Part shown: piece after piece, positions 2,850 through 46,924 of the stretch
Layout of the letters: every line of letters begins with the position of its first letter
Position numbering within the stretch: the first letter of the stretch is position 1
Assembly (NCBI GenBank): GCA_029266455.1
Contig: JAQSWV010000033.1
Span: 1 to 64,000, forward strand
Origin: Nocardioidaceae bacterium
GTDB taxonomy: Bacteria; Actinomycetota; Actinomycetes; Propionibacteriales; Nocardioidaceae
DNA length: 64,000 bases
Direction of reading: 5' to 3'
The notes under the pieces: model-generated
What the model was told of the DNA's origin: nothing
Databases searched by the model: none
The model's input: the letters and a program-made list of their open reading frames with translations, nothing else
Translations under genes and position numbers: made by a program

Positions 2850-3521
2850 GTGGACGAACAGGTGAAACCGCCGGACGAACAGGTGACGGGCCGCGAGACC
2901 TCAGCCGTGGGCGTCGGCCCCTGGGCCGGGCGATGGCCGGACGACGACCGGCTCGACCCGGAGCTGCTGGCCTCCGGCGACCGCCGCAATGTCGTCGACG
3001 CGTACCGGTACTGGCGGCACGACGCCGTCGTCGCCGACCTGGACACTCGCCGGCATGCGTTCTCGGTGGCGATCGAGAACTGGCAGCACGACCTCAACAT
3101 CGGATCCGTGGTCCGCACGGCCAACGCGTTCCTGGCCCGCTCGGTGCACGTGGTGGGCCGACGGCGCTGGAACCGTCGCGGCGCGATGGTCACCGATCGC
3201 TACCAGCACGTCCATCATCACCGCGACGTCCGCGGCCTGTCCGAGTGGGCGTCGGGGGCCGGCCTGGTGATGGTCGGTGTCGACAACCAGCCCGGCTGCC
3301 TGCCGCTGGAAACCGCGACGCTGCCGCACGCCTGCCTGCTCGTCTTCGGTCAGGAGGGTCCCGGCCTGAGCCCGGCCGCCCGCTCGGCCTGCGACACCAC
3401 CCTGTCGATCGCGCAGTTCGGCTCGACCCGCTCCATCAACGCCGGTGCCGCCGCCGCCATCGCCATGCACACGTGGGTCCGCCAGCACGCCGATCTGTCT
3501 CTCGCCTGGCCGGCTGGCTAG
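2850..3521 (+). CDS. TrmH/SpoU-family RNA 2'-O-methyltransferase
   Basis: This is a 223-residue SPOUT-class enzyme that uses SAM to methylate the 2'-hydroxyl of a tRNA or rRNA nucleotide. All three SpoU motifs are present: NIGSVVRTANAF (motif 1), VFGQEGPGLSP (motif 2) and SINAGAAAAIAMHTW (motif 3), which form the trefoil knot and SAM pocket. About 65 residues precede the core and are mostly acidic and poorly conserved. The GTG start lies 8 nt after TAGCGT. The target RNA cannot be read from sequence. Confidence 0.85.
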   Translation: MDEQVKPPDEQVTGRETSAVGVGPWAGRWPDDDRLDPELLASGDRRNVVDAYRYWRHDAVVADLDTRRHAFSVAIENWQHDLNIGSVVRTANAFLARSVHVVGRRRWNRRGAMVTDRYQHVHHHRDVRGLSEWASGAGLVMVGVDNQPGCLPLETATLPHACLLVFGQEGPGLSPAARSACDTTLSIAQFGSTRSINAGAAAAIAMHTWVRQHADLSLAWPAG

Positions 3522-42972: not shown

Positions 42973-45216
42973 TCATGACGTCGCCTCGGCCAGTGGACGC
43001 GGTGACACCTCCGTGGAGCGGTGTGCGGACAGGAAGGTCTCGGGCCTGCCCTCGATGTGCAGCTGGGGCACCCACCGGCCCAGCCAGCCGGGCAGCCACC
43101 AGTTCGCGCGGCCCAGCAGATGCATGACTGACGGCACCAGGAGCATCCGCACGATCGTGGCGTCGATGAAGATCGCCGAGGCCATGCCGACACCGATGAC
43201 CTTGAGGATGACGTCGGCACTCGGGATGAACGCGGCGAACACCGCGACCATGATGGCGGCGGCGGCCGTGATCACCCGGCCGGTGCCCGCCAGTCCCTCG
43301 ACGATCGCCCGGTGGTTGTCCCGGGTCCGCAGCCAGGACTCGCGCATGCGGCTCACGAGGAAGACCTCGTAGTCCATCGAGAGCCCGAACAGCACAGCGA
43401 ACATCAGCACGGGCACGAAGGCGGGAAGTGGCGTCTCGGCGTCGATGCCGACCAGGCGGCCGGCCCAGCCGCCCTGCAGCACCAGAGCCACGATGCCGTA
43501 GGCAGCCGCGACGGAGAGCAGGTTCATCAGGGCGGCCTTCACGGCCACCGCCAGGCTGCGGAAGGCGACGATCAGCAACAGCATCGACAGCAGCACGACG
43601 CCGCCGATCAGCAGCGGCAGCCGCTTGGCGATGTTCTCGGTGCTGTCGATCGAGGTCGCCGTGACACCGCCGACGTGGACCTCTGCTCCGGTGCCTGCGG
43701 TCGCGGCCGGCAGCACGTCATCGCGCAGGTCACGCACCAGGTCCTCGGTCCGCGCATCCTGTGGGCCGGTGTCCGGCACCACGGTGAAGACCGCCGTGTC
43801 GCCGGAAGGGCTGACCGCCGGTGGGGTGACGGCGGCGACGCCTGCGGTCTCACTGATCGCGGCCATCGCCGGCTCCAGTGCAGCGGTGTCGCCAGGAGCG
43901 GGCAGCTCGCTGACCAGGAGCAGCGGTCCGTTCGAGCCGGCGCCGAACGCCCGCGCCTGCAGGTCGTACGCCTCTCGGGTGCTGGTCTCCTCGCGGTTGT
44001 TGCCGGCGTCAGGGAACCCGAACCGCACATCGAGGAACGGTGCGGCGACGACCAGGAGCGCGACTACCCCGGTGAGCATGGCGACGACGGCGTGCCGCTG
44101 GATCAGCCGGCTCCACCACAACCACGCCCCGGACGGTTCGACGTGCCCGCCGGCGGCCACCTGCACCGCACCGCCCCGCCGGACGGGCAGGCGCAGCCGG
44201 TCCACGTGCGTGCCGAGGTAGCCGAGCAGCGCCGGGAACAGGGTCACGCTGGCCGCCATCACGACCAGCACGCTCAGAATGGTGACCACGGCCGCTCCGC
44301 GCATGAACGACAGGCCCATCGCGAAGAGGCCCAGCATGCTGATCACGACGGTCGTCCCGGCCACCAGTACCGCCCGGCCAGCGGTGTCCAGGGTCGCGAC
44401 CGTCGCGGCCTGCTCGTCGAGTCCGGCGGCACGCCACTCCCGGTACCGGGTCACCATCAGCAGTACGTAGTCGATGCCGATACCGATCCCCATCATCGTG
44501 GCCAGCGACGTGGACCAGTCCGGGGCGTCGACGAACGCGATGAGCAGTGTGGTCAGGGTCGAGCTCACCGCCAGACCCGCGACGGCGACCAGCAGGGGCA
44601 GCCCGGCAGCCACGACGGACCCGAAGGTCAGCAGCAGGATCACCGCGGCCGCAGCCAGGCCGATGGCCTCGGAGCCGATCTCGCCCTGCTCGGCCTGCTG
44701 GATGATCTGACCTCCGAGAGCGACCTCGAAGCCGGTCTGCGAGGCCTCCTCGGCGATCTCGAGCATCCGCTCGCTGTCGGCGACCGGCACGTCCACGGGG
44801 TTCGACACGTCCAGCCGCAGCTGCGCCGCGAGCGTCCGTCCGTCGGGAGAGACGGCTCCCGGGGTGGTGTACGGGTCATCGACCGACTGCACGTGCGGCT
44901 GCTCGCCCAGCTCCTCGAGGAGAGTGCCGACGCCAGCCTTCGCGGCCGCCGTGCGCACGCCGCCGTCCGCGTGCACGACGACGGCGACAGTGTCGCCCTT
45001 CATCGCGGGGAACTGCTCGTCGAGCAGACTCTGCGCGCGGCTGGAGTCCGACCCGGGTGCCGAGTAGTCGGCGAAGAAGGATCCCCCGAAGGCGGAGGCC
45101 AGCCCGACCGCCAGCAGCAGCGCGCTGACCCAGGCGACGACGGTCCGGCCGCGGCGACGGTAGGCGAGGGCGGCGAGCCGGCCCAGCGGGCCGGGTGCAG
45201 GACTGGTGTGCGCCAT
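42973..45216 (-). CDS. MMPL-family transporter (RND type)
   Basis: The 747-residue membrane protein has the RND/MMPL plan: helix 1, a large loop, five helices, repeated once. Each half carries the GIGIGIDYVLLMVTRYRE or LFGLSMDYEVFLVSRMRE proton-relay motif with Asp-Tyr pairs. It probably exports lipids or hydrophobic toxins by proton antiport. It starts at ATG 45216. Upstream are a TCGTTAC-N5-GTAACGA dyad and the shared element at 45280-45315. TetR is encoded 1 kb to the right, and control by it is likely. Confidence 0.9.
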   Translation of the reverse strand: MAHTSPAPGPLGRLAALAYRRRGRTVVAWVSALLLAVGLASAFGGSFFADYSAPGSDSSRAQSLLDEQFPAMKGDTVAVVVHADGGVRTAAAKAGVGTLLEELGEQPHVQSVDDPYTTPGAVSPDGRTLAAQLRLDVSNPVDVPVADSERMLEIAEEASQTGFEVALGGQIIQQAEQGEIGSEAIGLAAAAVILLLTFGSVVAAGLPLLVAVAGLAVSSTLTTLLIAFVDAPDWSTSLATMMGIGIGIDYVLLMVTRYREWRAAGLDEQAATVATLDTAGRAVLVAGTTVVISMLGLFAMGLSFMRGAAVVTILSVLVVMAASVTLFPALLGYLGTHVDRLRLPVRRGGAVQVAAGGHVEPSGAWLWWSRLIQRHAVVAMLTGVVALLVVAAPFLDVRFGFPDAGNNREETSTREAYDLQARAFGAGSNGPLLLVSELPAPGDTAALEPAMAAISETAGVAAVTPPAVSPSGDTAVFTVVPDTGPQDARTEDLVRDLRDDVLPAATAGTGAEVHVGGVTATSIDSTENIAKRLPLLIGGVVLLSMLLLIVAFRSLAVAVKAALMNLLSVAAAYGIVALVLQGGWAGRLVGIDAETPLPAFVPVLMFAVLFGLSMDYEVFLVSRMRESWLRTRDNHRAIVEGLAGTGRVITAAAAIMVAVFAAFIPSADVILKVIGVGMASAIFIDATIVRMLLVPSVMHLLGRANWWLPGWLGRWVPQLHIEGRPETFLSAHRSTEVSPRPLAEATS

Positions 45217-45243: not shown

Positions 45244-45262
45244 TCGTTACGACACGTAACGA
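45244..45262. promoter_or_regulatory. Operator-like dyad in front of the MMPL gene
   Basis: TCGTTAC (45244-45250) and GTAACGA (45256-45262) are perfect 7-bp inverted arms around a 5-nt centre, 28 bp before the MMPL start. The size and spacing suit a TetR-family or similar dimeric repressor. Confidence 0.6.
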
Positions 45263-45279
45263 ACACGATGCAGCGTCAC

Positions 45280-45315
45280 TTGTCAAGCCTCTTCACTTCC
45301 GTGACGACTCTTCAC
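45280..45315. promoter_or_regulatory. Regulatory element, copy A
   Basis: The pattern TTGTCAAG-N3-CTTCAC-N4-GTGA-N4-TCTTCAC occurs here and again at 46128-46163 with identical spacing in the same orientation. TCAC-N4-GTGA inside it is a dyad. It lies 63 bp upstream of the divergent MMPL start and about 200 bp before the 45514 gene. Confidence 0.7.
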
Positions 45316-45356
45316 CCCCTCTTGCCACCTCCTGTTGCCCACCCCCCTCTTGCCCA

Positions 45357-45387
45357 CCCCCTCCCGACGATCCGCGACTTATGCAGG
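45357..45387. repeat. Left arm of a 31-bp inverted repeat
   Basis: It is the reverse complement of 46073-46103 at 29 of 31 positions (core GACGATCCGCGACTT). The two arms enclose the 159-residue gene at 45514-45993. Confidence 0.75.
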
Positions 45388-45513
45388 CGGGTCGGCCAAG
45401 CCCCTTGTCCGGGTGCTGTCGGGCATGTCGACCGCGGGGGTGGGGTCACTGGCAGCGAGCCCGCGCATACGGCAGCATGCTGCGGCACCAGGACGGCTCG
45501 GAAAGGCGGGAAC

Positions 45514-45993
45514 ATGTCCCCACAGCGCATGGTCGAGTCGGTGACCGCGGCGCTGCGCCAGCTGGCGGTCGACGGGCCCGTGCTCGCCGTCGGTCAGTTC
45601 ATGCCGCGCGGCCATACCGGGAGCATGTTCGCCGGCGGACTTCTCGGAGACGGTGTCGGCGGTGGGGGTGGCGGACTCGTGGACAGCATCGCCATGGTCG
45701 GCGGGTCGGTCGCCGGCTACAAGCTCCATGACGCCACCTCCGGCTTGCCGGAGCGAATGCTCATCGGCGTGACGCCCAACGCCGTCTATGGCTTCGCGGC
45801 CTCGAGCCGGGCCAGCGAGGCGGGAGCGCTGGTCTTCGCCCTGCACCGCGACGACCTGACCGTGCAGGTGCACCAACGTGTCAACGTACGGATTCTCGAG
45901 CTGATCCAGACCTCGACCGGCGCCAGAATCCAGGTCGAGGGCAACCGGATTCCACTGACGCACTCCAAGGACGTCATCGACGCACTCACCTGA
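45514..45993 (+). CDS. Unknown protein, PH-like small cytoplasmic protein
   Basis: The 159-residue protein has no family I can name. It contains a Gly-rich loop (GDGVGGGGGGLVDS) after VLAVGQFMPRGHTGSM. A strand-rich C-half follows (MLIGVTPNAVYGF, LVFALHRDDLTVQVHQRV, ARIQVEGNRIPLTH) that looks like a PH-type barrel. No signal peptide is seen, and the Gly-rich stretch is too polar to be a clear transmembrane helix. ATG 45514 follows AAAGGCGGG. It sits alone inside the 31-bp inverted repeats between two copies of the 36-bp regulatory element. Confidence 0.6.
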   Translation: MSPQRMVESVTAALRQLAVDGPVLAVGQFMPRGHTGSMFAGGLLGDGVGGGGGGLVDSIAMVGGSVAGYKLHDATSGLPERMLIGVTPNAVYGFAASSRASEAGALVFALHRDDLTVQVHQRVNVRILELIQTSTGARIQVEGNRIPLTHSKDVIDALT

Positions 45994-46072
45994 CGTGCTC
46001 GGGTGCCGGGGCCGTGGTGCGTGCAGTGTTCGCCGCGCGGTGCGTGCTGCTTCGTAGCTGGCCGGTTCCTCC

Positions 46073-46103
46073 CCTGCACAAGTCGCGGATCGTCGCGAGG
46101 GGG
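46073..46103. repeat. Right arm of the 31-bp inverted repeat
   Basis: It is the partner of 45357-45387. It ends 24 bp before copy B of the regulatory element. Confidence 0.75.
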
Positions 46104-46127
46104 AGCGGGGCGGGGAGGGGTGGAGGC

Positions 46128-46163
46128 TTGTCAAGTGCCTTCACAGATGTGATGCTTCTTCAC
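46128..46163 (+). promoter_or_regulatory. Regulatory element, copy B, with a candidate TetR-gene promoter
   Basis: It has the same pattern and spacing as copy A. TTGTCA (46128-46133) and GATGCT (46151-46156) are 17 nt apart and would serve as -35 and -10 boxes. The start would fall near 46163, before the GAAGGGGG site of the TetR gene. The dyad TCAC-AGAT-GTGA overlaps this promoter, a likely autorepression site. Confidence 0.6.
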
Positions 46164-46189: not shown

Positions 46190-46924
46190 ATGCCGGCGAC
46201 GCCCGCCACGGAGTCCCGTCGGGACCGCGCCCGGAGCGCGACCATCGACGAGATCAAGCGGACTGCTCTGGACCTCATGCGCGAGCAGGGGACCACCGAC
46301 GTCCGGTTCACCGACATCGCCCGCGTCATGGGCATGACCCCACCCGCGCTGTACCGGTACTTCGCTGACCGCGACGAGCTGCTCACCGAGCTGATCGTCG
46401 ACGCCTACACCGAGCTCGGCACTGCCGTCGCGACGGCCCGGGAGAGCGTGCCCGAGAAGGACATAGGGGGACGGTGGTGGGCGACCGCCTCGGCCTACCG
46501 GGACTGGGCGCGTGGACACCCTCAGCGGTTCGCACTCGTCCTCGGCCTGCCGGTTCCGGGCTACGCCGCCCCCGAGGAGGGCCCCACCACCGAAGCCGCC
46601 AAGCGGGCGATGTCCGAGCTGGCTCAGCTGTTCGTGGCCGCAGCCGGTCTGGGCCGGTTGCGCAAGCCGCTCGTGCGGGGCGTAGGCGCGGCCATGGTCC
46701 GGTGCGCCCAGGACAACCACCCCGAGCTCGAGGGCGTGGTGCCGCACGACACCTTCCAAGCCATGCTGCAGGCCTGGGCGTCTCTGCACGGGATCACCTC
46801 GCTCGAGGCGTACGGCCACTTGGACTGGCTGGAGCCGGCAGCTCGTGACGCACTCTTCCGGAGTCAGGTTCTGATGGTGGCCAAGGCGGCCGGCCTACCG
46901 GCGCCCGCCTCAACCGCCGCCTGA
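46190..46924 (+). CDS. TetR-family regulator
   Basis: The 244-residue repressor has an N-terminal HTH (ATIDEIKRTALDLMREQGTT, DVRFTDIARVMGMTPPALYR, YFADRDELLTELI). A C-terminal WHG-type ligand domain (TetR_C_13) follows, with AYRDWARGHPQRFALVLGLP. ATG 46190 follows GAAGGGGG. A copy of the 36-bp element lies just upstream and another in front of the MMPL gene, so autoregulation and control of the exporter are likely. The ligand is unknown. Confidence 0.85.
   Translation: MPATPATESRRDRARSATIDEIKRTALDLMREQGTTDVRFTDIARVMGMTPPALYRYFADRDELLTELIVDAYTELGTAVATARESVPEKDIGGRWWATASAYRDWARGHPQRFALVLGLPVPGYAAPEEGPTTEAAKRAMSELAQLFVAAAGLGRLRKPLVRGVGAAMVRCAQDNHPELEGVVPHDTFQAMLQAWASLHGITSLEAYGHLDWLEPAARDALFRSQVLMVAKAAGLPAPASTAA

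Follow-up and report, generated by a model that had tools for sequence, protein, structure and literature searches.

Divergent genes for an exporter and its regulator that share their operators are familiar from the tetA/tetR layout, and a −10 box inside the operator dyad is the usual arrangement of a self-repressing TetR gene. Dispersed palindromic repeats are known as well, in the form of REP/BIME-like elements. For exporters of the MMPL family, the TetR regulators Rv1816 and Rv3249c (AlkX) of M. tuberculosis bind mmpL regions until palmitic acid releases them; with this fatty acid Rv1816 loses its affinity for DNA (PMC6463170). The locus reported here likewise associates a TetR-family regulator with an MMPL exporter, but in contrast to Rv1816 and Rv3249c it comprises a local regulator divergent from a single MMPL gene, the two sharing a promoter, and it is known from its sequence. 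It resembles tetA/tetR in its divergent exporter and regulator, in two predicted operators over two promoters and in a short intergenic region, whereas it differs in that 811 bp of DNA interrupt this region, one promoter/operator half of which occurs in two copies.

The window, a stretch of 64,000 nt from the Nocardioidaceae bacterium contig JAQSWV010000033.1, had been described in an earlier note as carrying, in this order, element A, an inverted repeat, a 159-aa gene, an inverted repeat, element B and a TetR gene. All of these sequence statements hold, including the position of the 159-aa reading frame between the arms, and Pfam matches confirm an MMPL gene as the left and a TetR gene as the right neighbour (Table 1). 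The MMPL protein matches PF03176 with 279 bits in two stretches, so that MMPL domains are present, and it is 65–77 % identical to the MMPL proteins of relatives; its score with the MmpL3 equivalog (trehalose monomycolate exporter) is 257.6 bits, far below the cut-off of 1400. With 37.3 bits for PF00440 (cut-off 24) and 74.7 bits for PF13305 (cut-off 26.8), the TetR protein lies above both Pfam cut-offs and combines an N-terminal HTH with a C-terminal ligand domain. SCO4313 (2oi8) is the best and Rv1816 (5d1r; E=2e-20) the second among its nearest solved relatives; a literature search returned no relevant paper on SCO4313. Scans for consensus promoters and terminators (45.2–46.2 kb) and for Rfam RNA families (42–49 kb) gave no site and no family, respectively.

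Table 1. Positions and descriptions of the features of the MMPL/TetR locus, with the layouts used for comparison.
Feature	Position	Strand	Description
MMPL-family (RND) exporter gene	42973–45216	−	PF03176, 6e-83
O1 dyad	45244–45262		TCGTTAC-GACAC-GTAACGA; 15-mer GTTACGACACGTAAC at 45246–45260; MMPL side; predicted ancestral operator
Element A	45279–45315	+	CTTGTCAAG, half-site CTTCAC, 15-mer GTGACGACTCTTCAC; still joined to O1
Inserted 811-bp block	45316–46126		C-rich end and arm, 159-aa gene, arm and G-rich end
Left inverted arm	45357–45387	−	Dispersed-repeat unit, core CCTGCACAASTCGCGGATCG
159-aa gene	45514–45993	+	Predicted PH-like fold, disordered glycine-rich loop; rare accessory gene
Right inverted arm	46073–46103	+	Another unit of this dispersed repeat
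Element B	46127–46163	+	TTGTCA (46128–46133), 17 bp, GATGCT (46151–46156); 15-mer GTGATGCTTCTTCAC (46149–46163)
TetR-family regulator gene (TetR_C_33)	46190–46924	+	PF13305, 1e-20; PF00440, 2.3e-9
Element pattern			TTGTCAAG-N3-CTTCAC-N4-GTGA-N4-TCTTCAC; exact in both copies
Ancestral layout			GTTA..TAAC dyad, usually (G/A)AACACGA, ~8 bp, CTTGTCAAG, 3 bp, CTTMAC, 3 bp, TGTRACGATGCTTAAC
Single-copy layout (summary form)			Dyad O1, then CTTGTCAAG-N3-CTTCAC-N3-TGTGACGATGCTTAAC

The two elements, proposed as 36-bp sequences (45280–45315 and 46128–46163), match the common pattern with 0 mismatches, where 0.00 matches are expected by chance at ≤3 mismatches. Both can be lengthened leftward by one C to 37 bp, over which they are identical at 27 of 37 positions, and their local alignment scores 17, compared with a maximum of 11 in 60 shuffles. 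As to further copies of either repeat elsewhere, which the earlier note had considered, the 36-bp element has none in its own genome within 3 mismatches, while the arms proved to be abundant (see below). A single 3-mismatch copy of the element was found among 294 other genomes of the family, likewise between the same two genes.

The comparison with genomes that carry MMPL directly beside TetR, which had been suggested before, was based on loci of relatives fetched with the TetR protein and one further locus found via the element pattern. The 19 loci come from Nocardioides, Jiangella, Phytoactinopolyspora, Haloactinopolyspora, Virgisporangium and MAGs; the MMPL gene lies divergently beside the TetR gene in 18 of them, and the contig of the 19th ends before MMPL. 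The MMPL and TetR matches are separated by 173–310 nt, except in two Jiangella loci with a larger gap. In each relative a single CTTGTCAAG element occupies a constant position in the intergenic region, and only the window has two copies. The 159-aa gene is absent from the fetched stretch of the 18 loci in which both genes are seen, and the block is absent from the loci of the relatives. This reading of an empty site rests on TetR proteins that are 56–68 % identical, a same-genus genome being without this TetR at E≤1e-40. The wide gap between MMPL and TetR in one of the Jiangella loci was considered as a second insertion and rejected, as it is actually an N-terminal low-complexity extension of MMPL: in Jiangella muralis (L055:3150–3900) the MMPL frame runs N-terminally into a long low-complexity repeat (NQPGSGNGRNGDHGQTGAS...). 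The gap in J. endophytica (L053) is similarly wide.

In most relatives, the O1-type GTTA..TAAC dyad followed by (G/A)AACACGA is conserved, and 18 distinct relative sequences agree without exception at 17 of the 37 element columns. The CTTGTCAAG motif, which does not vary from its second base onward, gives TTGTCA when read rightward and TTGACA when read leftward, a near-palindromic −35-like box. A rightward −10 of the form TTGTCA-17-(G/A/T)AnnnT is found in 18 of 18 relatives, and this putative −10 (nAnnnT) falls within the 15-mer dyad; for MMPL, the leftward −10 is poorly defined. The conservation of 15-mer dyads at both promoters suggests that the TetR protein binds the elements. The ancestral order would then have been O1 on the MMPL side, the near-palindromic −35 box CTTGTCAAG and an operator overlapping the −10 of the TetR gene itself, and a TetR protein seated on both operators would repress the exporter as well as itself until a ligand releases it. 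For a regulator/exporter pair conserved in at least three actinobacterial families, this provides a predicted operator consensus, GTKANGNNNCNTMAC, together with the half-site CTTMAC.

Against this background the flanks of the two elements in the window are informative. Element A keeps 15 of the 15 conserved ancestral columns of the left flank, compared with 2 of 15 for B, while in B the ancestral right flank persists at its start (CACGC). Such a division of the ancestral flanks between two copies is the mark expected of an insertion with target duplication. The block fits exactly between A and B, which abut its C-rich and its G-rich end, so that 37-bp copies with split ancestral flanks bracket it directly. 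Judged by their sequence, elements A and B represent the same 37-bp control element in duplicate. The T in column 31 of both A and B is found in no relative (G in 16, A in 2), and this shared base indicates that the duplication probably occurred within this lineage. It is hardly credible that two operators evolved independently for one regulator and resemble each other by chance: the operators of one regulator must indeed share defined bases, but here the whole layout of −35 box, half-site and operator is common to both copies, the T in column 31 is foreign to the relatives, and shuffles yield 0 such pairs.

Our preferred reading, to which we assign a probability of about 75 %, is that an insertion struck the shared MMPL/TetR control region, duplicated its right half and was followed by specialisation of the copies. 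The 811-bp block, in which repeat units on either side enclose a small gene with a predicted PH-like product, would have entered the control region in this lineage, and duplication of the 37-bp right half would have left both genes with a promoter and an operator. The length of the duplication is unusual, since 37 bp is longer than the target duplications that ordinary transposases make; a literature search for long target duplications returned, by title, casposons and eukaryotic elements. The same length speaks for a history in which tandem duplication of the control region came first and unrelated DNA with the repeats entered between the copies later, as does the age of the duplication implied by the 10 of 37 positions at which A and B differ. 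Both histories would leave the same sequence pattern. We nevertheless regard the prior tandem duplication as rather unlikely, as it needs two events at one place and the copies abut the C-rich and G-rich block ends exactly. The conserved TetR/MMPL control region is ordinary and an event of this type is not new; the details, namely the shared −35 box, the split roles and the lineage-specific repeat, are neat and testable. The locus presents a concrete example of a tightly packed two-way control region that survived an insertion, its overlapping part doubled and each copy apparently keeping the job of its own side.

The two copies have not remained alike. Of the 17 invariant columns B keeps 17 and A 16, and the rightward −10 reads GATGCT in B and GACGAC in A, which has lost the T at −7 that is present in 18 of 18 relatives. 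In view of this loss, the idea that A and B are equivalent promoters is not supported. Since A is without the T at −7 and B keeps it, A, still joined to O1, probably serves MMPL, and B probably serves TetR. All that lies leftward of B is G-rich repeat DNA; the leftward −35 of B, which now faces this DNA, finds no −10-like hexamer there at a spacing of 17 bp. The 15-mer of A is symmetric at 6 of 7 pairs. Identity between A and B amounts to 22 of 26 in conserved columns and 5 of 11 elsewhere (p=0.04), a weak and merely suggestive sign that both copies may be under constraint, the operator half of A included.

What the block carries between its ends is a single ORF, that of the 159-aa protein with its predicted PH-like fold, and no transposase or other mobility gene. 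The protein has no Pfam or NCBIfam match. Homologues 48–63 % identical to it occur in 4 of 97 other genomes, and weak homologues in 10 other genomes of a class sample; none of the four close homologues has a TetR/MMPL match within the 3.5 kb fetched. A structural model built with five sequences (pLDDT 71) shows strand E25–35, six further strands, helix H151–158 and a disordered glycine-rich loop at 42–75. Structural matches are led by PH/PTB domains, mostly at E 0.0007–0.04 and with TM <0.5 by query length, and our best guess from the model is a small PH-like protein. Such a protein might work alongside a lipid exporter at the membrane. An alternative is that element A still drives the 159-aa gene, which the insertion would have brought under TetR control as an accessory to the exporter. 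Element A does face this gene and retains TTGTCA and the largely symmetric 15-mer. We consider recruitment unlikely all the same, given that the rightward −10 of A has lost the T shared by all 18 relatives, that the gene starts ~200 bp downstream of A with a repeat arm in between, and that its homologues do not stand beside this TetR/MMPL pair in the stretches fetched.

The inverted arms are complementary at 29 of 31 positions (94 %), as described before; 685 nt separate them, and they are set back from the block ends by 41 and 23 bp. They turned out to belong to a dispersed repeat (core CCTGCACAASTCGCGGATCG) that this genome contains 136 times at ≤2 mismatches, compared with 0–4 times in the others of a class sample of 395 genomes. 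Of 120 other genomes of the family, 119 have none at ≤1 mismatch, and the same-genus genome is among these 119. This high-copy repeat is undescribed and confined to one genome among those searched. A literature search for such repeats in Nocardioides returned no relevant paper. Of the two alternatives offered by the earlier note, operators of TetR or an inserted unit that duplicated the promoter, both are supported at once, the exceptions being the equivalence of the promoters and the view of the arms as ends peculiar to the unit. As the arms belong to a genome-wide repeat, repeat units came to flank the block, which does not imply a complete transposon.

In the fetched stretches, 110 of 112 repeat units are intergenic by a home-made gene call, from whose coverage ~91 would be expected inside genes. 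Like REP/BIME elements, the units are short intergenic repeats whose inverted pairs form strong hairpins, the two closest pairs folding into near-perfect 20-bp hairpins with z about −9 to −11. They differ from REP/BIME elements in that one unit alone does not form a hairpin, in their frequent tandem runs at ~42 nt and in the absence of a Y1_Tnp (RAYT-type) gene. Mobilisation by a RAYT was rejected as an explanation, since no Y1_Tnp was found in the genome and control genomes gave matches.

The block could also be read as a mobile unit that ends in the inverted arms and inserts with long target duplications. The amplification of the repeat in this genome would fit, as would the orientation of opposite-strand neighbours within 1.5 kb, which stand in the order − then + in 20 of 22 pairs and in reverse in 2. 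Direct duplications moreover bracket the pair described here and a second one at locus L078, where the 3' end of a gene is duplicated over 102 nt (2793–2894 and 3134–3235; 96 % identical). This reading nonetheless appears distinctly unlikely: of the 18 pairs that allowed a test for short flanking duplications, 16 are without a long one, the pair described here and that at L078 being the two that have one, the DNA between the arms of wider pairs carries either unrelated genes (PHP domain, polyketide cyclase, AbiEi-like, exonuclease) or no gene, and neither a transposase family in the genes scanned nor a Y1_Tnp in the genome was found. In our view improbable, too, is the broader proposal of a mobile element specific to this lineage and lacking any recognised transposase. 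Under this proposal the 136-copy repeat would insert in inverted pairs of fixed orientation, produce long target duplications (37 bp here, 102 nt at L078) and be able to carry host genes between its arms, and here it would have split and duplicated the promoter of a regulator. The repeat is found, for example, at loci L075, L080, L083, L085, L088, L089 and L090 of this genome; several of its copies lie at contig ends, and single exact copies of its core are present in two IMG/VR viral contigs (L136, L137).
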